Shown here: positions 1-29,043 of the stretch, in pieces
Layout: each line of letters opens with the position of its first letter
Position numbering within the stretch: the stretch's first letter is position 1
Virus record (IMG/VR): IMGVR_UViG_3300033156_001223
Span: 1 to 41,841 of that record
Direction: 5' to 3' (one strand)
DNA: 41,841 nt
DNA from: a virus
The notes under the pieces: model-generated
Databases searched by the model: none
Seen by the model: only the letters and a program-made list of their open reading frames with translations
Told to the model about the DNA's origin: nothing
Position numbers and translations under genes: made by a program

Positions 1-68
1 TTCTCATATTTACGGAGGAATAGTCTTCTTCCTTGCTCTGTCTCATGCCCGTGCGAAACTACTTTCAT
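1..68 (-). CDS. Array 1 paralogue A0, N-terminal part only
   Basis: Partial gene cut by the left edge; only about 22 codons are visible. It starts MKVVSHGHETEQGRR, matching the leader of its neighbours (M-[KR]-V-x-x-H-G-x-E), followed by a basic patch and an F-x-x-x-Y segment as in A2 and A4. The SD GGAGGGGG lies just upstream and overlaps the TAA stop of the preceding gene. It shows the array runs past the window and has at least seven members. Function unknown. Confidence 0.8.
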   Translation of the reverse strand, partial: MKVVSHGHETEQGRRLFLRKYE

Positions 69-77
69 ACCCCCTCC

Positions 78-527
78 TTATGAAATATGTATTTCTTCTA
101 CTTCGAATCCATACCTCCCCAAAATCTCACGAACTTGTGCCCAAAACAGAGGAATTTCTACATCATCTGATATGTATTGATGATAACTTAGTAATTCCAG
201 AAGGGAAGCGGCTAAATCTATCATTTCTTGAAGATCATCAAGACTAAGGTCTCCTTGTAAATAATAATGCACATGTTGCACCACATCACAGCATAAGACT
301 AATGCCCTAGTCTGGGCAATTTTGGAATCTGTTATCCCAAAAAGCCCGGCTTTCTCATTTTTACGTAGCCAAAATCCAGTCGTACCTTCAAGTGCAGCAC
401 TAGTCAGTTGATAAGTATTGTGGCATATCCTAAACTCCTTCTTTACATTCTCTGGGCCTCTATAATGCCTAATAATTACTTTATTTGTTTGGTTATTTTT
501 TTCTTGATCATGAAGAACTACTTTCAT
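78..527 (-). CDS. Array 1 paralogue A1, unknown function (149 aa)
   Basis: I do not recognise the family. The protein has three parts shared along the array: the leader MKVVLHDQE; a middle segment with YQLTSAALEGTTGFW (consensus [YF]-x-[LF]-T-x-x-A-L-x-G-x-x-G-x-W); and a helical C-terminal part with DLQEMIDLAASLLELL. There is no signal peptide or membrane segment, so it is probably cytoplasmic. The start is taken at 527, behind a G-rich SD and downstream of the previous gene's TAG; an in-frame ATG at 548 lies inside that previous gene and has no SD. It is promoter-distal in the operon that begins near 7230. Confidence 0.85.
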   Translation of the reverse strand: MKVVLHDQEKNNQTNKVIIRHYRGPENVKKEFRICHNTYQLTSAALEGTTGFWLRKNEKAGLFGITDSKIAQTRALVLCCDVVQHVHYYLQGDLSLDDLQEMIDLAASLLELLSYHQYISDDVEIPLFWAQVREILGRYGFEVEEIHIS

Positions 528-537
528 CCTATCCCCC

Positions 538-987
538 CTACGAAACATCCCGAAATTCTATCTCAAACCCGGTCTTATTGAATAGGTCATATAATTTATG
601 CCAAAAATCGTCAAGATATGACGATCCAACTACATATCCCCAATGATATAGTAATCTACTAAGAGCTGCAGCTAGGTCTAATATCTCCTGCAAATCATGA
701 ATAGTTACTTTTCCGTTTAAATAGTCTACGGTCCGTGCCCGAATGATATCATACAAAGATTCTAACCGCTCTTTAATTTCGTCAATATCATCATTTACTT
801 CGAAGTAGGCTCCTCCTCCATGCATTACCCAGAATCCTGATTCTCCTTGGAGAGCCTTATCAGTTAAATAGTAGTGAACTCCGTCAACTATGAAGGGTGT
901 AAACATGCGAGGATTAATTTCATGATAATGCTTAAAAATGATCTTCTTTTCATGATCTCTTTCTTGTCCATGTTCTGCCACTCTCAT
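538..987 (-). CDS. Array 1 paralogue A2, unknown function (149 aa)
   Basis: Tandem paralogue of its neighbours. The leader is MRVAEHGQERDHEKK, very close to A4 (MKVVEHGEETKHDKK). The middle carries YYLTDKALQGESGFW and the C-terminal part carries HDLQEILDLAAALSRLLYH. It ends with an acidic and aromatic tail. The junction with the upstream gene reads GGAGGGTAGCATG, so one short stretch supplies the SD, the upstream stop and, after one base, this start. The same TAGCATG junction recurs twice more in the array, which suggests duplication of a whole gene-plus-junction unit. Function unknown. Confidence 0.87.
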   Translation of the reverse strand: MRVAEHGQERDHEKKIIFKHYHEINPRMFTPFIVDGVHYYLTDKALQGESGFWVMHGGGAYFEVNDDIDEIKERLESLYDIIRARTVDYLNGKVTIHDLQEILDLAAALSRLLYHWGYVVGSSYLDDFWHKLYDLFNKTGFEIEFRDVS

Positions 988-988
988 G

Positions 989-1450
989 CTACCCTCCTAC
1001 ATTTTCATGTTCTGTAGGAACACCTTCGATATCTATATCAACTCCCCCTCTTCTTAGTAGCTCACAAATTTCCGTCCAACAACAGTCACATTGATTCTCT
1101 GAAAAATAGTCGTGCCGAAAGAGGAGGCCGATGATGGCTACACATAAATCTACTGTGTTCTGTAGATCTGATAATGATAACCGGCCACGCAAAAATTCTG
1201 CAGTGAACTCTTTTATAGTAGTATACAAAGCTTTTACTGCATCAGTAACACAATGTTCGGAAATAGGGAAAGTACATAAAACACCATCCCGGGTGAGCCA
1301 AAAACCATCCCGCCCCCGCAGAGCAATATTTGCCAAAGAGTAGATAGATTGTCCTATTTCAAAACTAGTTTTTGAGTAATCAAAACTCTTATACCAACGA
1401 ACAGTAACTCTATATCTTGACTCTGAATTATGAGGATCTCCGAATCTCAT
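989..1450 (-). CDS. Array 1 paralogue A3, unknown function (153 aa)
   Basis: Paralogue with a variant leader, MRFGDPHN, which is intermediate between the M-[KR]-V-x-x-H leader of arrays 1 and 2 and the M-R-L-G leader of array 3. The middle motif is YSLANIALRGRDGFW. The C-terminal helix motif is SDLQNTVDLCVAIIGLL, followed by a pair of cysteines (CDCC) not seen in the sister proteins. The start at 1450 follows GGAGGAGAATAGC; an upstream in-frame ATG at 1477 lies inside the preceding gene. Function unknown. Confidence 0.86.
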   Translation of the reverse strand: MRFGDPHNSESRYRVTVRWYKSFDYSKTSFEIGQSIYSLANIALRGRDGFWLTRDGVLCTFPISEHCVTDAVKALYTTIKEFTAEFLRGRLSLSDLQNTVDLCVAIIGLLFRHDYFSENQCDCCWTEICELLRRGGVDIDIEGVPTEHENVGG

Positions 1451-1451
1451 G

Positions 1452-1907
1452 CTATTCTCCTCCCACGTGTAATGCATCAGTAATTTCGAACCCTAGATCA
1501 CGGAATAGCTTATGTAATTTGGGATAAAAATCGGTAACATCTGAAAAATCTGGTAGGTAATCATGATAGTTAAGTAGTGCAGTAAGTGAGAAGACCAAAT
1601 CTAGGAATTCTTGCAGATCCTCTACTGATAACTCACCATCTAAGTATCGGTCTGTATATATACAAGCAATATCATATAGAGTTAATAGACCTGCTTTAGC
1701 AGTTGTAGTATCTACTATTTTAAAGAAAGTGCCACCTGGATATAATACCCAACACTTTGGTTCTCCCAGAAACGCACTATCGAGTATGTGAAAATCAGCT
1801 CCTCCAACTTTAAAAGGTTCTCTCATTCGTGGGTGAATGCCTTGGTAAAAATTGAAGACAAGCTTTTTATCATGTTTGGTCTCCTCTCCGTGTTCTACCA
1901 CTTTCAT
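1452..1907 (-). CDS. Array 1 paralogue A4, unknown function (151 aa)
   Basis: Closest visible relative of A2. The leader is MKVVEHGEETKHDKK; the middle segment is partly degenerate (FHILDSAFLGEPKCW); the C-terminal helix reads EDLQEFLDLVFSLTALLNYH. The start at 1907 is chosen because it restores the shared leader and sits one base after the upstream TAG, behind GGGAGAG. The in-frame ATG at 1952 would overlap the preceding gene and has no SD. Function unknown; no membrane segments or cysteine motifs. Confidence 0.86.
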   Translation of the reverse strand: MKVVEHGEETKHDKKLVFNFYQGIHPRMREPFKVGGADFHILDSAFLGEPKCWVLYPGGTFFKIVDTTTAKAGLLTLYDIACIYTDRYLDGELSVEDLQEFLDLVFSLTALLNYHDYLPDFSDVTDFYPKLHKLFRDLGFEITDALHVGGE

Positions 1908-1908
1908 G

Positions 1909-2367
1909 CTACTCTCCCTCCCTATATAACTCATCAGTAAGTTGAAATCCACTATCAGAAAGCATGTCGTAGATCTCGATTCTACGGGCTAAGTAGTATG
2001 TTGATGAGATGTATGCATTGAACTTTAAGAGTCTTATAAAGGCAATGATTAGATCTATAGCGTTTTGTAGGTCTGCAATTCGCAACTCCCCGGTATTAAA
2101 GCGAGTCACTACTTTATCCAAAAATTTCAATGCTTTATCTATTTCTTTATGAACTTGCCTTATAGTTTCAACGAAGCCAAATGGTTCCACTTCTGTTCCT
2201 TCCAAGAGTGTTATCCATCGACCTGGTCTGCCCAACAATGCTGCTTCTGTGAATCGGAGATCATATCCATCTATTTTGAAGCTCTTATTCTTATTGAAAA
2301 TATCTATAATGTTTGGATAAGAAGGAAGACGGACAGACATACTCCGATGGTGATTTATTACTCTCAT
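1909..2367 (-). CDS. Array 1 paralogue A5, unknown function (152 aa)
   Basis: The leader is MRVINHHRSMS. The middle is LRFTEAALLGRPGRW and the C-terminal helix is ADLQNAIDLIIAFIRLLKF. It lacks the basic KK-x-x-F-x-x-Y segment that follows the leader in A2 and A4. The start overlaps the TGA of A6 (ATGA) behind a GGAGGAAGAGGT SD that also encodes the acidic C-terminus of A6. Its best match in the array is A6, since both contain an FG-hV-E block after the W motif (PFGFVETI and PFGLVERD). Confidence 0.86.
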   Translation of the reverse strand: MRVINHHRSMSVRLPSYPNIIDIFNKNKSFKIDGYDLRFTEAALLGRPGRWITLLEGTEVEPFGFVETIRQVHKEIDKALKFLDKVVTRFNTGELRIADLQNAIDLIIAFIRLLKFNAYISSTYYLARRIEIYDMLSDSGFQLTDELYREGE

Positions 2368-2759
2368 ACCTCTTCCTCCTCACAGTCTCTAAGAGATTCC
2401 ACACAAATCTCATGACTGGCTAGAAAATTAAGTATTACTGCTTTCCAAGCCAAATAAAATACCTCTGGTAAGTAACCATTAGCATATAAAAGCCAAATGA
2501 AGGCCATGGCAAGATCAAATGCATCCTGTAAATCTTGAAGCTGTATTTTCTGATTTAGAAAGTCTGATATTACTATTCCTAAAAATCTAATTACTTTTGC
2601 TACTTCTTTTTCAACATAAATAGGATCTCTCTCAACAAGCCCAAATGGATCTATAGGCATTACCCCCCTCAGTTCAATCCACCAGCCGGTTTCAGCATCG
2701 AAAGCTTCTCTAGTAAAACGAAAGCAACATTCCCCTACTTTAAAACTTCTCTCTCGCAA
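2364..2759 (-). CDS. Array 1 paralogue A6, leaderless form (131 aa)
   Basis: First gene of array 1 in transcription order and the odd member. It starts directly in the conserved core (SFKVGECCFRFTREAF), with no M-[KR]-V-x-x-H leader. The only usable start is TTG at 2759, without an SD; it lies 4 bases past the TAA of the upstream gene in TTTAATGATTTG, so translation probably depends on termination-reinitiation. The reading frame stays open upstream but has no ATG. The C-terminal helix is conserved (QDLQDAFDLAMAFIWLL), so the protein is probably still made. A lost or never-gained leader are both possible. Confidence 0.75.
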   Translation of the reverse strand: MRERSFKVGECCFRFTREAFDAETGWWIELRGVMPIDPFGLVERDPIYVEKEVAKVIRFLGIVISDFLNQKIQLQDLQDAFDLAMAFIWLLYANGYLPEVFYLAWKAVILNFLASHEICVESLRDCEEEEV

Positions 2760-2763
2760 ATCA

Positions 2764-3117
2764 TTAAAGTCGTGGAAACTCCAATAGGTGCCATAACATA
2801 GCTCTTAATCTTACTAACTCTTTGAAGGCAGCACAGTAATTCCCTCCACACTTTTCCGCTAGTGGACAATCGTTACAAACCATATTACCCATAACTTCCA
2901 CTTCCCCATCTATCTCCTTTGCAAGAAGATCATCATTTCCTACTAATTCTGATGGGTGATCCGAAGTCAGAACCTGTTTCAAAGAAGCTTTGAGCTTTAG
3001 TAGTTCTCCAAGGGCAGAACAAGGCCATTTGCCACACTGCCCCGCTAATTCACAGTTTTTACACATTTCATGCTTTTCAGCTACTCCATCAGTCTTCTGT
3101 GTAGTGTTTTCTGTCAT
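2764..3117 (-). CDS. Cys-rich protein with a duplicated C-x2-C-x5-C-x4-C module (117 aa)
   Basis: The protein contains two copies of a roughly 30-residue unit, CKNCELAGQCGKWPC and CNDCPLAEKCGGNYC. Each is followed by the same helix (ALGELLKLKASL and AFKELVRLRAML). Four cysteines per copy suggest two zinc knuckles or two small Fe-S sites; the sequence cannot decide which. The linker between copies is acidic. There is no signal peptide. It sits immediately upstream of array 1 in the same operon and has a good SD (GGAGGAAGAA). Family not recognised. Confidence 0.85.
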   Translation of the reverse strand: MTENTTQKTDGVAEKHEMCKNCELAGQCGKWPCSALGELLKLKASLKQVLTSDHPSELVGNDDLLAKEIDGEVEVMGNMVCNDCPLAEKCGGNYCAAFKELVRLRAMLWHLLEFPRL

Positions 3118-3248
3118 TTCTTCCTCCTTATCTTAAATTTTTTCTATATATCCTTGCAAAGTTCTTTGTTAGCCACGGTATGTCCTCAAAATCAATCGTA
3201 GGAGTAATAATATTCCCAAATATGGGCTATTTTTAATCTTCTCTACCT

Positions 3249-3662
3249 TCAAGGAAATCCTTGAAAGATATCTGAAGTCAACCCCTCGGCCATTAAAGTA
3301 ACTGTATGATGTTCATAACGTTTTGTTGCTTTGACAACACAATAACGCCCCTCATACCTATCCACCATACATTCAAATTCAAAATGATCATCAGCAAGAT
3401 CTTTAAATATTCCTACTTTACAATCTCTTCGAATAACATCTGGATCTACCTCTTCAAAGAAAGCATCATCAAAAACAGAGTTATAAGAAGTTGACAAATT
3501 ACGATCATCACTTACCATAACTTCCACAGCAAGCCCACTAGTTGGGTCCTTAAAGAACCCACCGACATAAAAGGATTGATCCAGCCTGAGTTTATGCTTT
3601 TTAAGAAACTTAGCCAGAAATTTTATTCTCCTATCCTTGCATTTACGATGTCTGAAAAGCAT
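3249..3662 (-). CDS. Unknown small protein with basic N-terminus (137 aa)
   Basis: Not recognised. The first 30 residues are strongly basic (RHRKCKDRRIK and similar), followed by an alternating pattern that looks like a beta-rich domain and an acidic middle (DDAFFEEVDPD). The SD AGGGGG lies 6 bases before the ATG. It is co-transcribed with the small proteins on both sides. The basic start could bind nucleic acid, but that is inference only. Confidence 0.75.
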   Translation of the reverse strand: MLFRHRKCKDRRIKFLAKFLKKHKLRLDQSFYVGGFFKDPTSGLAVEVMVSDDRNLSTSYNSVFDDAFFEEVDPDVIRRDCKVGIFKDLADDHFEFECMVDRYEGRYCVVKATKRYEHHTVTLMAEGLTSDIFQGFP

Positions 3663-3680
3663 AGCAAACCCCCTAATTGC

Positions 3681-4094
3681 TTACAAAAACTCTACTCGAA
3701 TCATGCGCCATAAGAACCGTTTATTATCCATATAGATACCACATGGTATTGCCAATACTAATCGACCTACTCTTTTTGTTGGATTCCAGCCTATTCCTCT
3801 CCAATTAGGTGAGTGATTCTCATAAACACAGTCTACTGCTCCATTATAACTCCCATGTAACTCACACATAGTCCACAAACGAGAGAATATTATATCTGAG
3901 ATAAGATGACGCAAGCAGCTTCTCTTCAGACCTCTATATCTACACCCAGCTGCCCGATTAATAATATCGTCTATTGTTTGTAGCTTTATTATTCTCTCAT
4001 CGATAGTCATATTCCCGTACAAAGCCTTCTCCAAAAACGAATCAGGAAAGGTCTTAAGAGTTTCTTTAACAATTTTATCTATAAATCCTTCCAT
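3681..4094 (-). CDS. Unknown small protein (137 aa)
   Basis: Not recognised. The start at 4094 (MEGFIDKIVKETL) is preferred over an in-frame ATG at 4124 because GGAGGAG lies 7 bases upstream of it. The N-terminal half is helical. The C-terminal half contains several Cys and Trp residues (CVYENHSPNWRGIGWNP) and ends in a basic, hydrophobic stretch. No clear domain. Confidence 0.75.
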   Translation of the reverse strand: MEGFIDKIVKETLKTFPDSFLEKALYGNMTIDERIIKLQTIDDIINRAAGCRYRGLKRSCLRHLISDIIFSRLWTMCELHGSYNGAVDCVYENHSPNWRGIGWNPTKRVGRLVLAIPCGIYMDNKRFLWRMIRVEFL

Positions 4095-4158
4095 AATTAC
4101 TCCTCCATATAGTGAGTAAGCCATGAGTGTAAATATTACATTTCATTGTATACAAAGT

Positions 4159-5037: not shown

Positions 5038-5048
5038 TTTTATCCTCC

Positions 5049-5933: not shown

Positions 5934-5944
5934 TGTTCGTTCCC

Positions 5945-6568: not shown

Positions 6569-6588
6569 TTTTTCTCCTCCTTATTAAA

Positions 6589-6753: not shown

Positions 6754-6763
6754 ATCACTCCTC

Positions 6764-7186: not shown

Positions 7187-7233
7187 CTTCGTTCTCCCCC
7201 TGGCTGGTAAGTTATTGCTTGCTATTCCTAATT

Positions 7234-7242: not shown

Positions 7243-7258
7243 GATTTATATAGGAGTT

Positions 7259-11888: not shown

Positions 11889-12281
11889 TCAAGAAGAAGG
11901 GTTAGAAATTGGGTAGAGTTTGGAATAGTAAAATCGAGGACTAATTTGATTGAGTTTGGCATGCAAGTAGGTAGAAACAATTGCATTTAAATATTCGCAA
12001 TTACTAGTATCAGTCAGAAGAGAGTGGCGAATAATTGCTACACAGCCACCATCCGGGGCCTCTCCAAAAGATATTTCCTTTGTTTCCTTATTAAATATTA
12101 GCCACAAACGCAACCAGCCGGAGAAAAGACTCACAGCAGACTCAATCACAGTCTCTACCTCAAAATACATAACTTCTCCCTTCTCATCCAACTGTTCAAC
12201 CTCTACAATATGGATATGTGTTACTCTGACTATTGGAAAGTCTAACAGGTCATTATTATTACTAGCTACTCCAAGATTCAT
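11889..12281 (-). CDS. Array 3 paralogue C1, unknown function (130 aa)
   Basis: Last gene of array 3. It starts MNLGVASNNNDLL behind GGGGGTGAAA; a GTG two codons earlier is too close to the SD. Family features are a beta-rich N-terminal half, the block LWLIFNKETKEISFG, an RHSLL segment, then CEYLNAIVSTYLHAKL. C1 and C2 share the N-terminal VASN and the C-terminal PSS, indicating a recent duplication. Not recognised; no signal or membrane segment. Confidence 0.82.
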   Translation of the reverse strand: MNLGVASNNNDLLDFPIVRVTHIHIVEVEQLDEKGEVMYFEVETVIESAVSLFSGWLRLWLIFNKETKEISFGEAPDGGCVAIIRHSLLTDTSNCEYLNAIVSTYLHAKLNQISPRFYYSKLYPISNPSS

Positions 12282-12356
12282 TTTCACCCCCTTTGTGTCA
12301 AATTGTTAAGTAGAGTAAAGTTTATAATAAGAGAAAAGAGGATACTACTCTTATCA

Positions 12357-12761
12357 TCAAGAGGAAGGTTCAGAAATGAGATGTGGCCACTTAACAGTAA
12401 GATTGAGATATTTGATATTGTGGAGCTTAGCATATAAATATGTAGCTACTACTCCATTAAGATGTGTGAAATAAAATGGTGCAAACGGATCTTGTATCTG
12501 CATGGGGATACGGGTTTCTACTATATGTTGGTTCTGTTGGTCTCCTGCTATTAGAGTATTGCTGTTTGCATTGAATAATACCCACACATGCACACCAGTC
12601 GCCTCCATAATTTTCTCTGCTTCTTTCGAGTCAAATAATGGAACAATGTCGGCATATTTCAAACCAATTTCTTTCCAAGCTTTCACGTCAAAAGTCTTTC
12701 CATAAGTTGTAGTGATTGTTAGTAGAAAGTCTCCTGGATTGCTAGCTACTGCGAACTCCAT
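12357..12761 (-). CDS. Array 3 paralogue C2, unknown function (134 aa)
   Basis: Starts MEFAVASNPGDFLL at 12761, 7 bases after AGGAG; a TTG two codons upstream is disregarded. Family blocks are VWVLFNANSNTLIAG, then PFYFTHLNGVVATYLYAKL. The gap of 75 bases to C1 contains only a weak 7-bp stem (ATAAGAG/CTCTTAT) and a TATTATAAA box lacking TG. Function unknown. Confidence 0.82.
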   Translation of the reverse strand: MEFAVASNPGDFLLTITTTYGKTFDVKAWKEIGLKYADIVPLFDSKEAEKIMEATGVHVWVLFNANSNTLIAGDQQNQHIVETRIPMQIQDPFAPFYFTHLNGVVATYLYAKLHNIKYLNLTVKWPHLISEPSS

Positions 12762-13140
12762 TTTCAACTCCTTGATACTTTCTAGTAAAGTCTAAGAACG
12801 GCTCATCCTGGGACATAGCTAGAAAATATGCAGCTATTGGACCAGATAAATATTTCAAGAAGCCAATTGTGGCTAAGATTGGATGGTAGAGTTTCACAGT
12901 TGGGCCATCACCAATGCTACTAATTAAAATAGTATTATCTGTGTAATTAAGTTTTCCGGTTATATGAGCCTCAAGAGCATCTCCAAGTAGGTTATCTATA
13001 CTATACACATTAAGGTCAAGCATCGCCTCAAAGAAAAGCACATCACCATCCTGCTCTCTTCTGAAAATGCGACCTCCATCTATTTCTATCAGTAATGAAT
13101 CATCGTCTATTCGAAAATTTAACCCAGTTCCCAACCTCAT
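12742..13140 (-). CDS. Array 3 paralogue C3, unknown function (132 aa)
   Basis: Starts MRLGTGLNFRIDDD with GGAGG 7 bases upstream; the start overlaps the TGA of C4. The beta-rich N-terminal half has an RIF-RREQDGD-VLFFEA pattern. The family block is reduced to KLNYTDNTILISSIGDGP, followed by YHPILATIGFLKYLSGPIAA. The C-terminal SS matches C1 and C2. The 3' end overlaps the SD and start of C2 by 20 bases. Function unknown. Confidence 0.82.
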   Translation of the reverse strand: MRLGTGLNFRIDDDSLLIEIDGGRIFRREQDGDVLFFEAMLDLNVYSIDNLLGDALEAHITGKLNYTDNTILISSIGDGPTVKLYHPILATIGFLKYLSGPIAAYFLAMSQDEPFLDFTRKYQGVENGVRSS

Positions 13141-13490
13141 GATATATCCTCCTGATTACACTCTTTTAGATACTTATATAACACTTTGGCTAAATATTCG
13201 TGGCAGTTATACGGAGCATTAGCAGCTAGTGAAGTATAGTGGAAAGGCATTAATGGCCCCCCAGGTAGCCCCTGTACTATTATTGAATTGGTGTATCTAT
13301 CAATAAATATCCTCATCGCAAATTTCCATTTTTCATCAGAATTACCATATTTGTATACAAGTGCTACTTCCCATCCAATACATGATGTATCATCGTTGAT
13401 GACATAATCTAACGTAGTATAGTCTAATACTATGATCCTATCCGAATTTTTTTCTTTTTCTTGCTTATTAGAAGACCCACCTAACCTCAT
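13137..13490 (-). CDS. Array 3 paralogue C4, unknown function (117 aa)
   Basis: Starts MRLGGSSNKQEKEKN behind TAGGAGGAAGAAG. It contains the clearest copy of the family block: MRIFIDRYTNSIIVQG, LPGGPLMPFHYTSL, CHEYLAKVLYKYLKE. C6 matches the same order (VFDRSSDLVVSQ, GGPKNVSIFHPAL, CGEYVADVLYNYI). The pattern suggests a small alpha/beta domain of about 110 residues. Function unknown. Confidence 0.83.
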   Translation of the reverse strand: MRLGGSSNKQEKEKNSDRIIVLDYTTLDYVINDDTSCIGWEVALVYKYGNSDEKWKFAMRIFIDRYTNSIIVQGLPGGPLMPFHYTSLAANAPYNCHEYLAKVLYKYLKECNQEDIS

Positions 13491-13501
13491 TCTTCTTCCT
13501 C

Positions 13502-13885
13502 CTATATTTCATAATGCAGTGGAGGCTCGTCATAAATATTTTTTACGTATAAGAAAATATATGCAGCAGTTATCTCTGCCAATAAATTGACAGGATGCTC
13601 AAATTTCCGTTTTACTCTAGACAAACCATCCATAATTATTATTGGATCGGTATGAAATCCCTCACCGACTACTACTCGATCATTTCTATGGTCAGCCATC
13701 ACCCAAATACTAATTTGTCCTTTGATATTGAAAAAATCCTCTTTAATTTCGTATTCGATATAGTATTGTTGGGTAAAACTATCAGGCCAATCAGGTAGTT
13801 TAGTAGGATAGAATGGTCTATGGACTAACATACTAAGCCCTCTTACACGGCATCGAAAGCTATGATCATCCTTCCCCAACTCCAT
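13502..13885 (-). CDS. Array 3 paralogue C5, unknown function (127 aa)
   Basis: Starts MELGKDDHSFRCRV behind GGAGAGGAGTA. The family block is IWVMADHRNDRVVVGEG followed by PVNLLAEITAAYIFLYVKN. The GGP-HP segment is degenerate. It is more diverged from its neighbours than C1, C2 or C4. Function unknown. Confidence 0.8.
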   Translation of the reverse strand: MELGKDDHSFRCRVRGLSMLVHRPFYPTKLPDWPDSFTQQYYIEYEIKEDFFNIKGQISIWVMADHRNDRVVVGEGFHTDPIIIMDGLSRVKRKFEHPVNLLAEITAAYIFLYVKNIYDEPPLHYEI

Positions 13886-13908
13886 TACTCCTCTCCTGAT
13901 CGCGCTCC

Positions 13909-14556
13909 TTAGAGTGTATATCTTCTGCCTATTGTTGCTTCATCTTTTATCAGACCTAGTCTGATCAGAAACCTAATGAACTTACCTTTCCAACTCAGTT
14001 GGTCATCACTTCTAGTATCTGTGGGTGTATTGTTGCTACTAGATGATGGATTGTTAGGAACTATCCAATCAAGATAATCATCTCCATCTTCCATTACTTG
14101 CGGCACAGGCACTGGTGCATCTATGTTATAGGCGAGTGTAGACGGATAAAGTATGGCATCAAGATTGCCATTATCCCGTACAATGGCATTATCTATGTAA
14201 TTGTATAGAACATCCGCTACATATTCACCGCATCCAAAAGGAGCACATTCAACTAATGCTGGGTGAAAGATACTAACATTCTTGGGGCCTCCCCAACATT
14301 GTGATACCACCAAATCACTTGATCTGTCGAAAACCATATCTAGGAAGATAGTCTTAAGTTGGTAGGAATCTTCTGCTTCATTATACACTTTGCAAGCTAA
14401 TTTTGTGCGCCAGTAAGCCTTTTCAGAATCACTCCTCCAATCTATAGTAAAATAAGCTAGTAATTTAACTTGAGGAGCACATACTGCATCAACCCTAAAT
14501 AGATCGGTGGTGAGTTCTTCCGATGGTGGTAAGTTATCAGATATCCCCATCTTCAT
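13909..14556 (-). CDS. Array 3 paralogue C6 with C-terminal extension (215 aa)
   Basis: First array 3 gene in transcription order. It starts MKMGISDNLPP; GGAGGAAAGA precedes the first ATG. Residues 1-130 match the family, with a block very close to C4 (GGPKNVSIFHPAL, CGEYVADVLYNYI). About 85 further residues are unique: a Pro/acidic stretch, a Ser/Asn/Thr linker (NNPSSSSNNTPTDT) and a hydrophobic basic helix (WKGKFIRFLIRLGLI). The extension could anchor the protein to a membrane or a partner; this is inference. Confidence 0.82.
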   Translation of the reverse strand: MKMGISDNLPPSEELTTDLFRVDAVCAPQVKLLAYFTIDWRSDSEKAYWRTKLACKVYNEAEDSYQLKTIFLDMVFDRSSDLVVSQCWGGPKNVSIFHPALVECAPFGCGEYVADVLYNYIDNAIVRDNGNLDAILYPSTLAYNIDAPVPVPQVMEDGDDYLDWIVPNNPSSSSNNTPTDTRSDDQLSWKGKFIRFLIRLGLIKDEATIGRRYTL

Positions 14557-19121: not shown

Positions 19122-19567
19122 AATTTACTAGCAATCTCATCTATTTTCTTACTAATTTTATCCAACTCTGTTAATACTTTGGCAGCCATCTTGGAGAACT
19201 CTTTAGTCACTTCCTGATCAGCACCAGATTCTTTCTCAATCGTAACATCTCTTGCAGGTAATACTCTTATTTCTTCCTCTTCCTCAGTAGCTTTTACCCA
19301 CCCCAAAATTTTTTCAGCTAGCTCTACCAGCTGTCTCTTTGGATCCGCCGCCTTCTTCAATACAACAATCTCCTCTTCAGTAATTGGAAAATCTTCCAAA
19401 AGCTCTTTATTATCACGCATCATTAGTAACATCGCAGCATTCATAAGACCACTAAGATTAAGACCATCGATCCACATATCTTCATCATCATCAAATTCGA
19501 AGTCTTCTTGCTCTGGATCTTCCCATATCCCAGCGTGCCTTGGGTTCCATTTTTTTGGCTTCATCAT
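19118..19567 (-). CDS. Acidic helical baseplate-operon protein (149 aa)
   Basis: Very acidic (DFEFDDDEDMWIDG near residue 25) with a C-terminal amphipathic helix (LTELDKISKKIDEIASKL). Two tandem ATGs exist at 19567 and 19564; the second is better spaced from AGGAGG. Wedged between the ClpP-like and J genes with four-base overlaps. Not recognised; an assembly factor or small baseplate part would fit. Confidence 0.7.
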   Translation of the reverse strand: MMKPKKWNPRHAGIWEDPEQEDFEFDDDEDMWIDGLNLSGLMNAAMLLMMRDNKELLEDFPITEEEIVVLKKAADPKRQLVELAEKILGWVKATEEEEEIRVLPARDVTIEKESGADQEVTKEFSKMAAKVLTELDKISKKIDEIASKL

Positions 19568-20088
19568 TCCTCCTCCTCTCCTTCAATTTCGAAGAAAGCC
19601 TCAATTGGCAACCCAGTAATTTCCTTATGGGCAATCCCCAACTTCAAGGCTTCCCCTTTGGTTATAATGCTACCATTTTTAAAATATTTTTCAACATCTT
19701 TTTTCTTCATTTTAGTCGACTTGCATAATATCGAGGTAATCCTACAAAAGTAATCATCTAGTTCTTTTTTTGCCCCCGGAGTCTCATTATAATCAATTTT
19801 CCCATGAACAAAGTAAGGAGAATGAAAATAGAAGACACAATGAGGTAGTGCCCATCTCTCACCACCTCCAAGATAAATAAATAAAGCAGCACTACCTACC
19901 ATGCCCCCAGCGATAGTAATCACTTTTCCGGGGTAAGCTCTTAGTAAGTCAAAGATAGCTGCTGCGATTTCGGAATCACCACCACTACTACAGATGAGAA
20001 TGTAGGCAGGATCTCCTTCGAGATCAGTTAGATAATCTACCACATATCGCAAAGTTTTTGCATCAATTTCTCCTTGGATGCTGATCAT
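19564..20088 (-). CDS. ClpP-like serine protease (S14-like fold, 174 aa)
   Basis: ClpP/crotonase-fold pattern: the SSGG oxyanion segment at residues 34-37 (ClpP SPGG), nucleophile Ser66 in GGMVGSAALFI, and catalytic His89 in VFYFHSP. The ending TKGEALKLGIAHKE equals the ClpP S-A-x-E-A-x-E-Y-G-L-I-D region. The third catalytic residue is doubtful: my alignment puts Tyr where ClpP has Asp171, with an Asp four residues earlier. Start is ATG 20088 after GAGG; a TTG two codons upstream is also open. It lies in the baseplate operon rather than beside a portal or capsid gene, so a prohead-protease role is unlikely. A Clp ATPase is encoded about 1.5 kb upstream. Confidence 0.8.
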   Translation of the reverse strand: MISIQGEIDAKTLRYVVDYLTDLEGDPAYILICSSGGDSEIAAAIFDLLRAYPGKVITIAGGMVGSAALFIYLGGGERWALPHCVFYFHSPYFVHGKIDYNETPGAKKELDDYFCRITSILCKSTKMKKKDVEKYFKNGSIITKGEALKLGIAHKEITGLPIEAFFEIEGEEEE

Positions 20089-21597: not shown

Positions 21598-21628
21598 AAG
21601 AAGGGGGAGATCACCCCTCCCCCTTCTT
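21598..21628 (-). terminator. Strong intrinsic terminator of the Clp operon
   Basis: A perfect 12-bp stem (AAGAAGGGGGAG pairing with CTCCCCCTTCTT) with a 7-base loop. On the minus strand it runs into a T tract (CTTCTTTTTAGC). The TGA stop of the Clp ATPase gene lies in the loop, so the terminator doubles as the end of the coding sequence. Confidence 0.88.
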
Positions 21629-23569
21629 AGTTACTATAAGTTCTCCATTATCCACCTTTACCTGAATATTCTCTACTACTTCACGTACCAAGATCCCTGC
21701 TGCAGGATTCAAAATCTTATCAGTTATTACCCGCAACAATGGTCTAGCTCCTAACTCTGGCTGATAACCATGTTCAATCAGGTAACCTACTACTTCATCG
21801 TCATACTCTAGAGCTACTCCTTCCCTACCCAACACTTCCGCAACCTTATTAAGATGGTATTTGGCAATCTCAGCAAGCACATCCCGGGTCAGACTCTTGA
21901 ACAGGATTACCGAATCAATCCTGTTCAAAAACTCCAATCTTAGGTTCTTAGATAAGAAAGTTAGAACTTTTTCGTATTGTTTATCATAGTTCTCGTCATT
22001 GACTTCTCCCAGAGTATTTGTCAAGAAGTTAGAGGTGAATATGATTATGCAGTTACTGAAATCAACCATGTTACCCCTACCATCCGTCATCCTTCCATCT
22101 TCTAGCATGTCTAACAAAGCAGAAGTAACTGTTGAGGCCGCCTTATCAATCTCATCTAACAACACTACACAGTAGGGGTTCTTGCGAACCGCTTCAGTAA
22201 GTTGGCCGCCTTCTTCGTAACCAACATAGCCAGGAGGAGAGCCATATAGACGAGAAACTGAGTGAGGTTCAATATACTCAGACATATCAATTCTCACTAG
22301 CTTTGTTTCATCTCCAAACATTGCTTCGGCCAAGGCTTTGGCAGTCTCAGTTTTCCCCACTCCAGTAGGCCCTACAAATAAGAAATTGGCTACAGGTCTG
22401 TGACGGTAGTGTAGACCAAGTCGTCCTCTTCTCACTGCATCTGCCAATCTCTCAATCGCATGATCCTGTCCTTTTACTCTTTCCTTTAATGTCTCTTCCA
22501 GCCTCGAGAGCTTCTCCTTTTCACTAGCGGTGATACGGTGGACAGGTATCTTCGACTTCTTAGCAACTACCCACGCTACATCCATACTAGTTACTGTAGA
22601 TTGGAAAACATTGGAACTGATATGATTCAGAATATCTTGGAAGATTTTTCTAGCTTTTTGTTCACTAACCTGTTTGGCTTCTTCCAACTTAGCAAACAGG
22701 TCACTATCTTGCACTCCATAATTGAGTAAGACCATTTCCAATGTTTCACAGATATCAGCGACTGTTATATCCTGATTTTCTATTAAAGATGGAATATCTA
22801 AATTGAGAAGTTGAGATCTCGTTCTAACTAAAGCCATAGATTGATCCATCACATCAATAGCCTTAGCTGGAAGATTGGCATCATGAATAAAACGAGAAGA
22901 TAAAGTAGCACATGTAACCAAAACCTCATCTGACACTGAGATGCCATGAAATTCCTCATAAAGATGTTTTATTCCACGAAGAATTTCAGTGCATTCGGCA
23001 ATGGACGGTTCATAAACAAAAACCGGCTGTAAACGGGCTACCAATGCTCTATCTTCTTGTAAATGCCTTCGGAAATCATCGTATGTAGTAGCAAATATCA
23101 TCTTTGAGGTATTAAAGGCCAATTTTGACTTGAACATTTCAGTAATAGGAAGATCACCCTTTGCTTTGGTTAACTGATGGAATTCGTCGATAAATAAAAC
23201 TGCATTTTCATTCAATCCCATCTGCTCAAACAGAGTATTGACCCGATTTTCTACTTCTCCTTTTGCACATGCTCCTGCTAGAATTGAAGAGGCGTCGATC
23301 TGGTATATTGTCCAATCTTTCATGTAAGAAGGAACTTTTCCCTCTAGAATTCGAAAAACTAGTGCATGTACCACACTAGTTTTACCTACTCCGTGCTCAC
23401 CCAGAATCAAGGGGATGTTCCTCTTTCTTCTGCTCAAAACGTGTATTAACTGATTAACCACTTCATCCATCCCAATTACTGGATCAATCAATCCATCTTG
23501 GCAGGCCTCATTCAAGTTTAAGCAGATTTGATCCAGATTCATTTGACCAAGCTTGGCCTCCAACTCCAT
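21611..23569 (-). CDS. Double-AAA+ Clp/Hsp100 ATPase without N domain (652 aa)
   Basis: Hsp100 (ClpA/B/C/E class) unfoldase. D1 opens almost at once (GLIDPVIGMDEVV, residues 26-38), with Walker A GEHGVGKT at 57-64 and Walker B FIDE at 126-129. D2 has Walker A GPTGVGKT at 400-407, the pore motif GSPPGYVGY at 443-451, Walker B VVLLDEID at 468-475 and sensor 2 GARPL near 615. The usual N-terminal substrate domain is absent, and the D1-D2 linker is much shorter than the ClpB middle domain. The expected ClpP-docking tripeptide position after TSN reads TNTLGEVN, so docking is unclear. It is placed between tail genes; the SD is strong. Confidence 0.95.
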   Translation of the reverse strand: MELEAKLGQMNLDQICLNLNEACQDGLIDPVIGMDEVVNQLIHVLSRRKRNIPLILGEHGVGKTSVVHALVFRILEGKVPSYMKDWTIYQIDASSILAGACAKGEVENRVNTLFEQMGLNENAVLFIDEFHQLTKAKGDLPITEMFKSKLAFNTSKMIFATTYDDFRRHLQEDRALVARLQPVFVYEPSIAECTEILRGIKHLYEEFHGISVSDEVLVTCATLSSRFIHDANLPAKAIDVMDQSMALVRTRSQLLNLDIPSLIENQDITVADICETLEMVLLNYGVQDSDLFAKLEEAKQVSEQKARKIFQDILNHISSNVFQSTVTSMDVAWVVAKKSKIPVHRITASEKEKLSRLEETLKERVKGQDHAIERLADAVRRGRLGLHYRHRPVANFLFVGPTGVGKTETAKALAEAMFGDETKLVRIDMSEYIEPHSVSRLYGSPPGYVGYEEGGQLTEAVRKNPYCVVLLDEIDKAASTVTSALLDMLEDGRMTDGRGNMVDFSNCIIIFTSNFLTNTLGEVNDENYDKQYEKVLTFLSKNLRLEFLNRIDSVILFKSLTRDVLAEIAKYHLNKVAEVLGREGVALEYDDEVVGYLIEHGYQPELGARPLLRVITDKILNPAAGILVREVVENIQVKVDNGELIVTKKGEG

Positions 23570-23622
23570 TATTTCCCTCCTTTAATTAATTTTTACCCAA
23601 ACAGACTTTCTGACTCTAAGAT

Positions 23623-25389
23623 TTAGCCAAGACTTTCTTTGATCTCTGAGGATATTAAATCCCACAGACTGTTAAGAGAGGTGAGATCGTTAATGGATAA
23701 ATTAAAAAGGTCTTGATACTTGCCATCAAACAATAAATCTTTAATGCGAGTAGCTCCCATGTCTTCCACGGACCATAATAAATTATTTACTTGGTGATTC
23801 TCTGGAATTAGAAATTCTTGACAGTACTGTCTAACGTCTTGGAGTAAAGTAAGCTTGCTATCTAAATCTGAAATGATTTCCGAACAATATCTATCTCTTT
23901 CTTCTTTATACTGCCTCCATGCATTGGACATCCGAAATTGGTTTTGGCTATTTTCCTCCTCATCAAGCATTTTTAGAGTAAAATTAATCATCCTAGTTAA
24001 ATTGTTTATCAATTTACTGAGCGAATTGGCTGTGAAAATGTCCAATATTTTATAACGAAAAATTCGAATAATTGACCAAAGGTGCCCCCAATATTTGCTT
24101 CCGTTTCTATAAACAATTGCTCCGTAAGTCCCGTTGGGTATTTCCAATACTCTATCTAAAACTATCACTCCTTCCTCTTCATCAATCGCTTTGACTTCGA
24201 ATGAGCCAACACTAAATTCCCTCTCCAAACTTACTCCGCTCACTGGATGAGTAGTAGTTGGGATTAATAAAGTTCCATCATCAAGTTTAAGACTACCAAC
24301 CATAAATCGGTCACCAACCTGAATATTCTCAGTAGATATTTTCACTATACTACTACCATCATAGCAAGAGCAGCTACCTTCATAAACTGTAATTCCTTTA
24401 ACACTTATTGGAGTACTTAATGTTTCCAAGGCCTGCTTCCCTGTTGCAAAATATTTCAAAATTTCCTCTACTCTCTCACTCACTTTATCAAAAGTATCTC
24501 CAGAAGATATTAAACTCATCAAGGAATCAAACTTAGGAAGAATAATGTTACTGATCCTTTTTGCTAGGCTCCCCCCAATTTCTTCAAATTCCTCCAAAGA
24601 TTTTTCTAATCTATCTACCAACTCTATTAAGGTTGCCCATTGTCTTTGGAGCTTGACAAGAAGATCACGAACATTAGTTAACCTAGTAATAAAAGATTGT
24701 AGTAACGATTGTAGTACCTCACTGGTATTACCTAATAAATTTACGACCGCTTGAAATCCAGTAGCAGTAGTCATTCCGGTCAGAAGTGAGGTTAGATTAA
24801 CTTGTCGGCGCAGAAATGTTGATTGTTTAGGAGTATCCAATCGGGATGATTTGAGTAGACTGGTAGCAGACTTAAGCTTCTGAATCGTATCAATAATCTC
24901 ATCCAGAAGGGGAATGATTTTGTGATGGAGTAGAATAGAGGCAAGATATACTGCGGCATGGGCTTCCCCATTCTCCTCCACATCAAAAGCGAAGACTGTA
25001 ACAATATTCTCCAACAACTCTTCAAGCTGTTCAGTGTAACCAGGAAGAGGACCAGGTGGTATTTCGATTACTTTAGAGACAAAAAACTGTAGAATCTCCT
25101 GTACTTTGCTCTTGGTGATATCTACTACGTTATTACTGGTGAGTTGGGTATAGATGTCATCTACTAATTTATCAACATTTTGAGGAGAGAAATTCTTTCG
25201 CTGGCTTTCTATTTCCCCAAACAAGGCTTCTAGTATTTTAATTTTGATATTTAAAAATTCTTGTAGTTTCCCCAGAGTTCCTGAAGAAAGTTGAGAAATA
25301 TCACGTAGTTGTACAAACTTACGAACTTGAGGGAGGGCCTGTTGAGCTTGAGCTAGTAATTGCTGTTCTAAATCCGATAGATCTAGCAT
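23623..25389 (-). CDS. Large structural protein, helical with an internal beta domain (588 aa)
   Basis: Residues 1-330 and 450-588 are helical with coiled-coil-like repeats (LIELVDRLEKSLEEFEEIGG). Between them, about 340-430, is a beta domain with a CSCYDG turn and a GDRFMVGSLKLDDGTLLI pattern. No family recognised. It is first in the Clp ATPase operon; a substrate or virion partner of the ATPase is an attractive but unproven idea. The ATG lies 11 bases after a TATAAT box with only a weak GGAA, so the leader is very short. Confidence 0.72.
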   Translation of the reverse strand: MLDLSDLEQQLLAQAQQALPQVRKFVQLRDISQLSSGTLGKLQEFLNIKIKILEALFGEIESQRKNFSPQNVDKLVDDIYTQLTSNNVVDITKSKVQEILQFFVSKVIEIPPGPLPGYTEQLEELLENIVTVFAFDVEENGEAHAAVYLASILLHHKIIPLLDEIIDTIQKLKSATSLLKSSRLDTPKQSTFLRRQVNLTSLLTGMTTATGFQAVVNLLGNTSEVLQSLLQSFITRLTNVRDLLVKLQRQWATLIELVDRLEKSLEEFEEIGGSLAKRISNIILPKFDSLMSLISSGDTFDKVSERVEEILKYFATGKQALETLSTPISVKGITVYEGSCSCYDGSSIVKISTENIQVGDRFMVGSLKLDDGTLLIPTTTHPVSGVSLEREFSVGSFEVKAIDEEEGVIVLDRVLEIPNGTYGAIVYRNGSKYWGHLWSIIRIFRYKILDIFTANSLSKLINNLTRMINFTLKMLDEEENSQNQFRMSNAWRQYKEERDRYCSEIISDLDSKLTLLQDVRQYCQEFLIPENHQVNNLLWSVEDMGATRIKDLLFDGKYQDLFNLSINDLTSLNSLWDLISSEIKESLG

Positions 25390-25400
25390 GCTAATTCCAT

Positions 25401-25406
25401 ATTATA
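25401..25406 (-). promoter_or_regulatory. Possible -10 box upstream of the Clp operon (TATAAT)
   Basis: Minus-strand TCT-TATAAT, lacking the TG extension of the other sites, 11 bases before ATG 25389. No good -35. Supported mainly by its position between array 2 and the Clp operon. Confidence 0.4.
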
Positions 25407-25426
25407 AGATATTAATGTCAGTGTTG

Positions 25427-25504
25427 CTAGCCGGTTAGAAGATCGTAGTGCTCAAGTAAGATATAACGAATTGGCTCAGTTAATATTGTTTTGCCACTTA
25501 TGTT
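25427..25504 (-). pseudogene. C-terminal remnant of a sixth array 2 paralogue
   Basis: In the gap after array 2, the minus strand encodes about 25 residues ending ILTEPIRYILLEHYDLLTG and a TAG. This matches the C-terminus of the adjacent gene (KLTKLLRDILLKHYDLLIY). An in-frame TAG at 25505-25507 cuts it upstream, and the roughly 20 further bases before the next gene show no homology and no start. This is the tail of a deleted paralogue. Confidence 0.8.
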
Positions 25505-25528
25505 CTATATGAAGGATCTGGGTGGTTC

Positions 25529-26212
25529 TTAATAAATCAAGAGGTCATAATGTTTGAGTAGGATATCACGGAGAAGTTTGGTTAGCTTAATTATGGAATT
25601 TTTATTATGATAGGCTAGAAGTTTATTAGCAAAAGCCTCATATGGATAGGGTAATAAATATCTACCTACACTCCTCCTAGTGCGTAGTATATAGGCTATA
25701 TCTGACTTACCAAACTTAATCGCAACTTTTCTGAACTCAGGCCACGGAGAAAAATTCCATACAATATATTCAATATATACTTCACACTCCTCTTTTCCTA
25801 CTTTTGAATATATGTCATATATTCTTATCATATTTGAATCTTCATCTTCAGGCCTATAGAAATTTTCGGGGGTAAGCTCAAAGTATTTACTAATAGAGTG
25901 ATGGGGTTCCTTCAGACTAATAGCACCTCGACAAATAGCGAAATAATATTTGTCTAATTGGTCTTTTGGCCGTGAAACAAGCCCAATTGGGTTAAACTTT
26001 GCCTCTTCATCTTTCAAATCCACATCCAGTAATAATAGGTAAGGATCGTTCGACTCAGTAAAGATATGAAGGGTGTCTTGTCTATAATTGTTATCAAATA
26101 GGTAGTCTACATGGATGGTTCGATGTTGATAGGATGGAGGAACACCACCTCTAGGTGGCTCCTCAATCATTTTTGTTATTATTGGGTATCGTCTGTGTTC
26201 CTCTACTCTCAT
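25529..26212 (-). CDS. Array 2 paralogue B1, unknown function (227 aa)
   Basis: Starts MRVEEHRRYPIITK at 26212 behind AGGAGGATTAAA; a GTG at 26236 sits inside the upstream gene. After the leader there is a beta-rich region (HRTIHVDYLFDNNY), a GLVSRP...DKYYFAICRGAI segment, a mixed domain, then PYEAFANKLLAYH and the C-terminal helix LLRDILLKHYDLL. B2 repeats the same order. No family recognised; no signal or membrane segment. Confidence 0.84.
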   Translation of the reverse strand: MRVEEHRRYPIITKMIEEPPRGGVPPSYQHRTIHVDYLFDNNYRQDTLHIFTESNDPYLLLLDVDLKDEEAKFNPIGLVSRPKDQLDKYYFAICRGAISLKEPHHSISKYFELTPENFYRPEDEDSNMIRIYDIYSKVGKEECEVYIEYIVWNFSPWPEFRKVAIKFGKSDIAYILRTRRSVGRYLLPYPYEAFANKLLAYHNKNSIIKLTKLLRDILLKHYDLLIY

Positions 26213-26222
26213 TTTAATCCTC

Positions 26223-26909
26223 CTATGGTAATGCACTTAATAGAAAATCATAATTATTGAAAAGAATGTCTCGTAAGAGTTCTGGAAGTATAAAGAATTG
26301 GTTATCTCTATAAGCTAGGAGCTTCCCGGCAGCTTCAATATATGGCATACCAAGAATCTGTACCTGACTCTTTTCCTTTACTCTCATATCACAGTAACTT
26401 GTAAAATCTGATCCGTCTACTGTAATAAATGCAAATGGCATACTTATAATTGCTTCGTAGTCATATATCTTATAATAAAACATAACCATTTTGAGCCGGT
26501 CATCATAAAGCTCAGTCTCTAATGTTGAAACTAGGATCCCAGAAAAATTTTTGTCTTCACATCGATAATACTCATTCAGATCGGTTATAGTTTGAGGCCT
26601 ATCAGATGACATATGGAAATGTGCAGTAACCGCAGCACGACAAACAGCAAACCGATGGGTTATATAGACTTCTTCAGCATCCAAAATATTCAATAGCTTA
26701 TAAGGATATGCTGTGTTCTCAGTAAAATAAAGCCAACTTACTATGGCCTTGTCAAAATATTTGTCTAATTTGAAACTAGCGCGAAAACCTTTACCTCTGT
26801 ACACATACTCAACATGGAAGACTTGATGAGAAGCACCATCTTCATCTGTCCTTTTTCTCTCTAGAATTACTTTTCGTAGGGCCAAACAGTTATGGTCTTC
26901 TACTCTCAA
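26223..26909 (-). CDS. Array 2 paralogue B2 with TTG start (228 aa)
   Basis: The best start is TTG at 26909, 8 bases after GGAGG; it yields (M)RVEDHNCLALRK and restores the shared leader. The in-frame GTG at 26918 directly abuts the SD and cannot be used. Shared blocks with B1 are QVFHVEYVYRGKGFR, HRFAVCRAAVTAHF, PYIEAAGKLLAYRDN and LLRDILFNNYDFLL. Function unknown. The TTG start may lower expression relative to its neighbours. Confidence 0.84.
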   Translation of the reverse strand: MRVEDHNCLALRKVILERKRTDEDGASHQVFHVEYVYRGKGFRASFKLDKYFDKAIVSWLYFTENTAYPYKLLNILDAEEVYITHRFAVCRAAVTAHFHMSSDRPQTITDLNEYYRCEDKNFSGILVSTLETELYDDRLKMVMFYYKIYDYEAIISMPFAFITVDGSDFTSYCDMRVKEKSQVQILGMPYIEAAGKLLAYRDNQFFILPELLRDILFNNYDFLLSALP

Positions 26910-26921
26910 TTTAGGCACCTC

Positions 26922-27608
26922 CTAATTGACACGATATAGGAAATCGAAAAAGTAGAGTAACATATTCCAAATCTCGATAGATATTCCTATTCTATTGTGA
27001 TAACGTGTGTGTTCCTTGATTTTATCTGCAAATACTTCATAGGGAATATCCACGATTTGAACCCTGCAATAGGGGCCTTTTGATACTGTTTGATGAAGAT
27101 GATCATTATCAAGCTTATTTACCACAAGAGAGGCCTTATGAAGTGAATCAAAGGAATCCCACGAACTTTTATATATAATATGGAACACAGAGTGATCTTC
27201 AGTAACCTTCTCTAAATCAGTCGCCCATATTTTAATATTTTGAATTGCCACATCTTTCTTGAGACTAGATATATCATTCTCTGTAAGGGTTCTATATTTA
27301 GAATCCATATTATTTAATACAGCTTTGCAATGTACTATTCCTCGATGTGAAACTCCAACTTCTAAACTCGCTGGCAGATCTACTACCTTCTGAAACCTTC
27401 GTATACACCCAGATTGGTAATCATATTCGATTATTCCCAATTCGTAGAGTTCTAAGCGGAAAGAATAGAAACTATATACGGTTTTACGATAAACTTCACC
27501 ACATTGTTTATATTCAGCATAGTAAATGGAGAGTGGATGAAACTCGTCATGAACTACTTTAGTTATCTTCGGGGTAGGCGACGGACCTATATGATTTTCT
27601 ACTCGCAT
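26922..27608 (-). CDS. Array 2 paralogue B3, unknown function (228 aa)
   Basis: Starts MRVENHIGPSPTPK and overlaps the 3' end of B4 by 10 bases; no SD is visible, so translation is probably coupled to B4. Shared blocks are SIYYAEYKQCGEVYR, VSHRGIVHCKAVL, IVDIPYEVFADKIKEH and a C-terminal WNMLLYFFDFLYRV. Function unknown. Confidence 0.83.
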   Translation of the reverse strand: MRVENHIGPSPTPKITKVVHDEFHPLSIYYAEYKQCGEVYRKTVYSFYSFRLELYELGIIEYDYQSGCIRRFQKVVDLPASLEVGVSHRGIVHCKAVLNNMDSKYRTLTENDISSLKKDVAIQNIKIWATDLEKVTEDHSVFHIIYKSSWDSFDSLHKASLVVNKLDNDHLHQTVSKGPYCRVQIVDIPYEVFADKIKEHTRYHNRIGISIEIWNMLLYFFDFLYRVN

Positions 27609-28276
27609 TTATAACTTGGTATAGGAGACAACAATACTGAAGTAGATAAATTTGTACCAAGACTAATTAACTCTGCAATGATATCATCATTTTCTTCGTT
27701 ATGAACCTCAAAGAGTTCAATTCCAAGATCATCTAATGAAAAAAGGCGTGGACGAAAAATCAATGAAGCCTCCCTTGTAGTAAAACTGGGAATTTCATGG
27801 TAGATGATAGTCAAACGAGTAGTTTCGGGCTCCTCATATCTGTATATAATATTGTGGATACAGATTATTTTATTGTTCTCATCTAACTCAATTGGTGGTG
27901 CATCAGCATCTACGACCCACAAAGCATCCTCACCAGACTCAGTTGATAATATCATTTGAAGGGTATACCCAAAATGCTTAAAGTAAACATCACGTTTATT
28001 AGTAGTAATTTTAGTTTGTAAATTCGGTGCAGAGGAAGGAGTGCTATAAACTACTCTTCCGAATTCTAATATATCATTATTCGGAGGTACAGGTTTATAC
28101 CATATTCTTTTGTAAATGCTAGCAATATTCTTATCTCCTTCCATGTCAATATACTCTATATGCCCGATTCGTACTTCTGATGATGTTTTTTCATCTTTTA
28201 CCCACGGCTCAAGAATCATGCCTTGAATTCTCTCTATTGTACGGAGATGTTTTTGGGTATGGTCAACAACTCGCAT
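27599..28276 (-). CDS. Array 2 paralogue B4, unknown function (225 aa)
   Basis: Starts MRVVDHTQKHLRTIE behind GGAGGGGAAATT. It is closest to B5: both have HTQ after the leader, an I-x-EPW segment (MILEPWVKDE and VISEPWRRIA), an RIGHIEYIDMEG / RIAHAQYIDDKG block and an LEFGRVVY / LVLGRVDF block. The C-terminus is diverged and lacks the LLRDIL helix of B1 and B2. Function unknown. Confidence 0.83.
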   Translation of the reverse strand: MRVVDHTQKHLRTIERIQGMILEPWVKDEKTSSEVRIGHIEYIDMEGDKNIASIYKRIWYKPVPPNNDILEFGRVVYSTPSSAPNLQTKITTNKRDVYFKHFGYTLQMILSTESGEDALWVVDADAPPIELDENNKIICIHNIIYRYEEPETTRLTIIYHEIPSFTTREASLIFRPRLFSLDDLGIELFEVHNEENDDIIAELISLGTNLSTSVLLSPIPSYKCE

Positions 28277-28320
28277 AATTTCCCCTCCAATCGTTATCTT
28301 GGAAAGAAATTGACAAGCCC

Positions 28321-29043
28321 CTATTCAAGTAGCCAGTAATAACATTGGAAGAGCAGCTGTCTCAAGGTTCCAGTCAATAAAGGAATGTTGCTCTTAAATA
28401 AAATTTCTTTTACTGTTGTAAGATTCTCAAAAGAATCACATTCACACTGGAGCTCGGTTCTGCAATTTCCTTGCTCATCAAAGATCCTACACATAAAGTT
28501 TCTTATACTCTCGGGGACTATAGCTAGTGTTACTTCCTCTTCGTCATCACCATTAGAAGGAATACAATAATACTTAAGATTTATCATAAAAAGCCCATCT
28601 GCTGCTGAAGATGGATTTTCATAATTTAGCTCAACGACATTGATAACTGGTATTACAAGGTGTTCATATTCCTGAAAAATATGTGGACCCAACTTCTCAG
28701 TTACTGGTAAGTCAATATTTTTATCTGCCTCCAAGCTCAATACTAATAAACAGACAATTGCTTGGTTAAACAGTATACCGGTGTTATGAGAGGCATGAGT
28801 CAGAATAAGTTTAGGGCGAAGAACTGGTACGACATGATCAAAATCTACTCTACCAAGCACCAACGTATCATTATAATTTTGCATTAATTTGTAGAAGCTG
28901 CCTTGGCGTCTCTTACCCTTATCGTCAATATACTGTGCGTGGGCAATTCTAATATCATCGATCAAACCATCACTAGCAATTCTTCTCCATGGTTCAGAAA
29001 TCACCTTCTCCAATCTTATTTGTGTATGACTCACTACTTTCAT
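28321..29043 (-). CDS. Array 2 paralogue B5, unknown function (240 aa)
   Basis: First gene of array 2, behind promoter F with a GGGAGGAAAGAGG SD. Starts MKVVSHTQIRLEKV. Contains the EPW and RIAH-QYIDDKG blocks shared with B4, two Cys-rich points (LQCECDSFE) and a C-terminal LRQLLFQCYYWLLE that matches the LLRDILLKHYDLL helix of B1. The leader MKVVSH is identical over six residues to that of array 1 gene A0, 29 kb away. Function unknown. Confidence 0.84.
   Translation of the reverse strand: MKVVSHTQIRLEKVISEPWRRIASDGLIDDIRIAHAQYIDDKGKRRQGSFYKLMQNYNDTLVLGRVDFDHVVPVLRPKLILTHASHNTGILFNQAIVCLLVLSLEADKNIDLPVTEKLGPHIFQEYEHLVIPVINVVELNYENPSSAADGLFMINLKYYCIPSNGDDEEEVTLAIVPESIRNFMCRIFDEQGNCRTELQCECDSFENLTTVKEILFKSNIPLLTGTLRQLLFQCYYWLLE

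Follow-up and report, generated by a model that had tools for sequence, protein, structure and literature searches.

In phage T4, diverse internal proteins have only a capsid-targeting sequence in common (PMC3012670), a tag by which T4 loads proteins into its head and which Alt also carries. In the giant phage SPN3US, the inner-head paralogues gp53 and gp54 have identical N-termini on bodies that are 34% identical (PMC5694885). In phage P1, an N-terminal signal on DarB sends this accessory anti-restriction protein, as well as a reporter, into the head (PMC9024508). Another type of N-terminal signal is recognized by the protease ClpXP: N-motif-2 examples in Escherichia coli begin with Met and a basic residue, as in MRVVI or MKLPI (PMC9775585, Table 2).

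Here we describe a leader, M-[KR]-V-x-x-H, carried by at least 17 small-protein genes of a contractile-tail phage, the Gln variant MQVVPH included. The carriers belong to about six unrelated families and are distributed over seven genomic sites. As in T4, a short Met-basic N-terminus is found on diverse small accessory proteins whose bodies are otherwise different (PMC3012670; PMC5694885). The sequences do not match, however: T4 starts read as MKT[YF]xEF (three T4 genes found), versus the six residues M[KR]VxxH on 17 genes here. T4 and giant-phage propeptides, moreover, end at a Glu-type prohead-protease site, whereas no such site is fixed here. The SPN3US pair likewise has identical N-termini on diverged bodies, but these involve a 15-residue stretch with A/S-x-E cleavage motifs in one homologous pair, as opposed to unrelated families. 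P1 DarB also bears its N-terminal signal on an accessory protein; that signal requires more than 9 residues, and no N-terminal consensus is shared among the Dar proteins of P1. Because a fixed short N-terminus sits on unrelated, fast-diverging small proteins, we read the leader as a sorting tag: one common partner would recognize these accessory proteins, and their likeliest destination would be the assembling virion. We give this reading as a whole a probability of about 0.45.

The window, that is, the whole stretch of DNA analysed, is the opening 41,841 bases of a linear virus record 142,619 bases (142.6 kb) long. This record is incomplete, and array 1 runs off its end. Gene calling relied on a simple script that combined ORFs with a ribosome-binding-site score, so that start sites are predictions. 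Nearly all window genes lie on the minus strand, and they include a baseplate wedge protein, a tail sheath, a major-head-protein-like gene and a large terminase with distant named relatives, for example in Salmonella phage Arash. Terminase identity to the relatives is only 33-39%. Three arrays of tandem diverged paralogues are present (array 1, 1-2759; array 2, 25529-29043; array 3, 11889-14556), arrays 1 and 2 being located among tail and baseplate genes. The tail region also contains a ClpP-like protease (window 19564-20088) and a two-AAA Clp-type ATPase (window 21611-23569). Further along the record, a 469-aa gene at 60.1-61.5 kb has, among others, a weak match to a head-maturation-protease PHROG (E = 4e-5) and no Pfam match, and a TnpB-type OrfB_IS605 protein of 390 aa with a Cas12f1-like TNB domain is encoded at 52477-53649. 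A single-chain RNA polymerase of 1815 aa (82608-88055, minus strand) has both Rpb2-like and Rpb1-like domains and, at about residues 1388-1782, an intein with a LAGLIDADG homing endonuclease; related long genes are found in Arash, in Vibrio phage D69 and in a related record (L052).

Table 1. Leader-bearing genes and related features, in positions of the virus record (the window starts at its first base).
Feature	Coordinates	Strand	Leader and remarks
Array-1 A0, leader	51..68	-	MKVVSH; gene runs off contig end
Array-1 protein, 149 aa	78..527	-	MKVVLH at 510-527
Array-1 protein, 149 aa	538..987	-	MRVAEH at 970-987; structure modelled
Array-1 protein, 153 aa	989..1450	-	Variant start MRFGDPHN, nearer the array-3 leader
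Array-1 protein, 151 aa	1452..1907	-	MKVVEH at 1890-1907
Array-1 protein, 152 aa	1909..2367	-	MRVINH at 2350-2367
Truncated array-1 paralogue (N-terminal loss)	2364..2759	-	Without leader or linker; TTG start only
Array 3, six small genes	11889..14556	-	Second shared start M-x-[LMF]-[GA]-x-x-x-[NH]
Array-2 protein, 227 aa	25529..26212	-	MRVEEH at 26195-26212
Array-2 protein, 228 aa	26223..26909	-	(M)RVEDH at 26892-26909; TTG start
Array-2 protein, 228 aa	26922..27608	-	MRVENH at 27591-27608
Array-2 protein, 225 aa	27599..28276	-	MRVVDH at 28259-28276
Array-2 protein B5, 240 aa	28321..29043	-	MKVVSH at 29026-29043
Single carrier gene	start 70701		MKVVDH
105-kb family, three 76-80-aa proteins	104.6-105.4 kb		MKVNDH (start 104875), MKVLGH (start 105126), MKVVKH (start 105359)
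Array-1 homologue at 112.8 kb	start 113265		MQVVPH, Gln variant
CxxC zinc-ribbon protein, 81 aa, 125.6 kb	start 125585		MRVINH
Single carrier gene, 99 aa	130505-130804		MKVEEH (start 130804)

A sequence-only reading of this DNA had listed M-[KR]-V-x-x-H starts in arrays 1 and 2, and all of them are present: the leader opens all five genes of array 2 and five genes of array 1, the first of which is truncated by the contig end (Table 1). The search for further instances that it had proposed returned six more genes and the Gln variant elsewhere in the record. Some features speak against the sorting reading: the tagged proteins are mostly acidic, no called head, portal or sheath gene has the tag, and the neighbours of several carriers, away from the structural region, include a helicase, a thymidylate kinase and a lipoprotein-like gene. 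Two diverged leaderless paralogues look decayed, namely the truncated member of array 1 and a sequence at 131.8-132.0 kb (131779-132015) that may be a decayed duplicate of the tagged 99-aa gene at 130.8 kb. The spike gene does begin with MRFRSG, as had been noted, but the suggested link to the leaders is not supported: this start fits neither the leader nor the second pattern described below, and was not counted as a carrier. A 331-aa orphan gene beside the RNA polymerase (88094-89089) starts with MRFQPH, a near match that we excluded from the carrier count.

Chance was also considered as the origin of the leader, and was ruled out by column shuffles and by a pair test in relatives. V3 and H6 occur together in 16 of 201 called genes (hypergeometric p = 1e-15), while the best pair across 30 column shuffles reached p = 2e-6. 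In seven near-complete relatives, the pair test revealed no comparable signal of any kind, with a best p of 3.5e-5 versus 5.6e-14 in this phage; run on T4, the scan detected the phage's own tag weakly. All 13 automatically called genes starting with M[KR]V have His6, and the DNA form of the leader, ATGARRGTNNNNNNNCAY, occurs 13 times in this record versus once for a reversed control.

The bodies that follow the leader appear unrelated. Without trimming, the array-1 and array-2 profiles share an alignment of 39 columns at the protein start, with a probability of 20.6, which could be taken as a trace of distant homology, the arrays forming one superfamily of which the leader is merely the best-conserved part. 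Once six residues are trimmed, however, the same comparison is reduced to 5 aligned columns and a probability of 0.1. Similarly, the 105-kb family aligns with array 1 over the first 12 residues and with array 2 over the first 9 when untrimmed, and after trimming no pair among arrays 1-3 and the 105-kb family exceeds a probability of 0.5%. The carrier at 125.6 kb is a zinc ribbon and the array-1 model has a compact fold of its own, two further points against a common superfamily, which we regard as scarcely credible. Array 2 alone displays the same disparity between leader and body: V3 and H6 are 100% conserved on bodies that are 18% identical, and M1, V3 and H6 make up three of the five invariant columns. 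Thus arrays 1 and 2 are not detectably homologous without their first six residues, as the sequence-only reading had supposed, and the start, far from being general in this phage, is found on only about 8% of its genes, which belong to several unrelated families. Neither of the two conditions that this reading had named as refuting it therefore applies.

A shared start may be conserved as a peptide or as DNA, and the earlier reading had left both possibilities standing: a protein tag, or a start cassette in which a ribosome-binding site and first codons are copied by recombination before new genes. Following the check proposed in that reading, which decides for the tag, we compared codon diversity over the 17 leader starts of this record with genome codon use. 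V3 and H6 show zero diversity at codon positions 1-2, while third-position diversity is 0.62 for V3 (0.70 expected) and 0.44 for H6 (0.38 expected), that is, as diverse as genome codon use predicts. Codons 4, 5 and 7 onward vary at every codon position, and the bases upstream of the starts contain a ribosome-binding-site signal only. A0 and B5 are indeed identical over their first six residues (MKVVSH), but they encode these with different Val, Ser and His codons (GTT TCG CAC in A0 versus GTG AGT CAT in B5). The one observation in favor of a cassette is at codon 2, where A endings exceed the frequency expected from genome codon use (p = 0.011); A endings stand at about half in other genes with Lys or Arg at codon 2. 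With codons 4-5 and upstream bases free, and the V3 and H6 amino acids kept through synonymous change, a copied cassette is very improbable, and selection on the leader peptide is supported instead. We are accordingly highly confident that M-[KR]-V-x-x-H is a tag acting at the peptide level.

The array-1 protein at 538-987 was modelled with a mean pLDDT of 88. Its body is confidently predicted as an alpha/beta fold whose first strand begins at residue 15, and fold searches of PDB and BFVD with this model returned nothing significant. Since residues 1-9, below pLDDT 50, precede this confident body, the tag is likely on a flexible tail; in this single confident model the leader is disordered ahead of a folded domain. 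The array-2 model is poor (pLDDT 47), at most consistent with a flexible tail, and was left out of the fold searches.

Selection on the peptide rather than on DNA makes the leader a probable address tag read by one partner; recognition by a single common partner is the better-founded part of the sorting reading, and we consider it reasonably likely. The short linear tag would be exposed on its disordered tail, where one common phage-encoded partner would bind the Met-basic-Val...His end and thereby gather small, fast-diverging accessory proteins at one place. This place may be the assembling virion, from which the proteins would travel into the next host like the T4 internal proteins. Loading into the virion is more tentative than recognition by one partner. 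Late products directed to the virion would suit the position of arrays 1 and 2, which lie among tail genes, but several carriers lie outside the structural region and no Glu-type prohead-protease site (x-x-E) was found at a fixed distance after the leader: E9 is present in most array-1 members and in one 105-kb member, and absent from array 2 and from the single genes. Lacking a fixed prohead-protease site after the tag, the leader is not claimed as a member of the T4 system.

The spread of carriers across structural and non-structural regions would fit a docking tag that brings accessory proteins to a hub inside the cell instead of the virion, for example to the RNA polymerase or sigma factor of the phage, a replication complex or a membrane site. 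Both an RNA polymerase and a sigma-like factor are encoded by the phage itself, and the 331-aa gene adjoining the polymerase begins with MRFQPH, although this start may be chance. We consider such docking somewhat unlikely. Proximity of a phage ClpP and a two-domain Clp-type ATPase to array 2 raises another alternative, in which the leader is an N-terminal degradation signal that a phage or host Clp protease would use for timed turnover. In N-motif-2 of ClpXP, hydrophobic residues occupy positions 3-5 after a Met-basic start. The leader has the Met-basic start in common with E. coli N-motif-2 examples, some of which then continue with hydrophobic residues (PMC9775585), but the known motif has no conserved His6, and residue 5 is mostly polar here, 13 of the 17 leaders having D, E, N or S; position 4 is E or N in 5 of 17. 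Furthermore, the phage ATPase has neither a Pfam Clp_N match nor the I-G-[FL] tripeptide in its D2 loop, and a degradation signal appears distinctly improbable. A Cu/Ni-binding N-terminus, which requires His at position 3, was rejected on the position of the leader His.

Returning to the sorting tag, its distribution appears very narrow. Over 50 related records together, the DNA form of the leader occurs 7 times, no more than the reversed-pattern control, and the array-1 profile found nothing in these records. No homologue of any tagged protein was seen in the relatives examined, nor in named phages for the two tagged proteins tested, and the tagged families scanned have no significant Pfam or PHROGs match. 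Array or 105-kb proteins were recovered from a near-identical copy of this phage or from no relative at all. A virus-wide DNA scan for a ribosome-binding site followed by the leader returned single matches, with a convincing second leader start in none of 84 loci. As far as these collections show, the tag is special to this lineage.

Array 3, whose bodies have no detectable relation to arrays 1 or 2, displays another shared start. The M-x-[LF]-[GA] described earlier is present, but position 3 may also be M, and the pattern continues with x-x-x-[NH] (Table 1). For two of its genes the best start is an internal ATG that has a ribosome-binding site, which gives MNLGVASN and MEFAVASN. The MRFGD start previously reported for an array-1 gene is confirmed at 989-1450; this gene is without the first leader and fits the array-3 pattern. 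Seven matches to the pattern were counted versus 0.28 expected, but six of them come from adjacent genes of a single array, probably paralogues, so that a second leader common to array 3 and gene 989-1450 is suggestive only. If it is real, the start of gene 989-1450 would be a leader exchange. A fuller scheme can be drawn, in which lineage-specific sorting involves one receptor with at least 17 clients from about six families, and a second tag directs array 3 and gene 989-1450 to another destination; we regard this scheme as doubtful.

Sequence alone usually does not allow the accessory proteins of phages to be assigned, since they evolve fast. Here, a shared tag unites 17 orphan accessory proteins that are probably bound for one destination, and the six-residue peptide could serve to fish out the partner that reads it. 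If the destination is the virion, the tagged genes would list proteins that are injected along with the DNA, for which anti-defence functions are expected, and the leader would be a loading handle shorter than those of T4 or P1.
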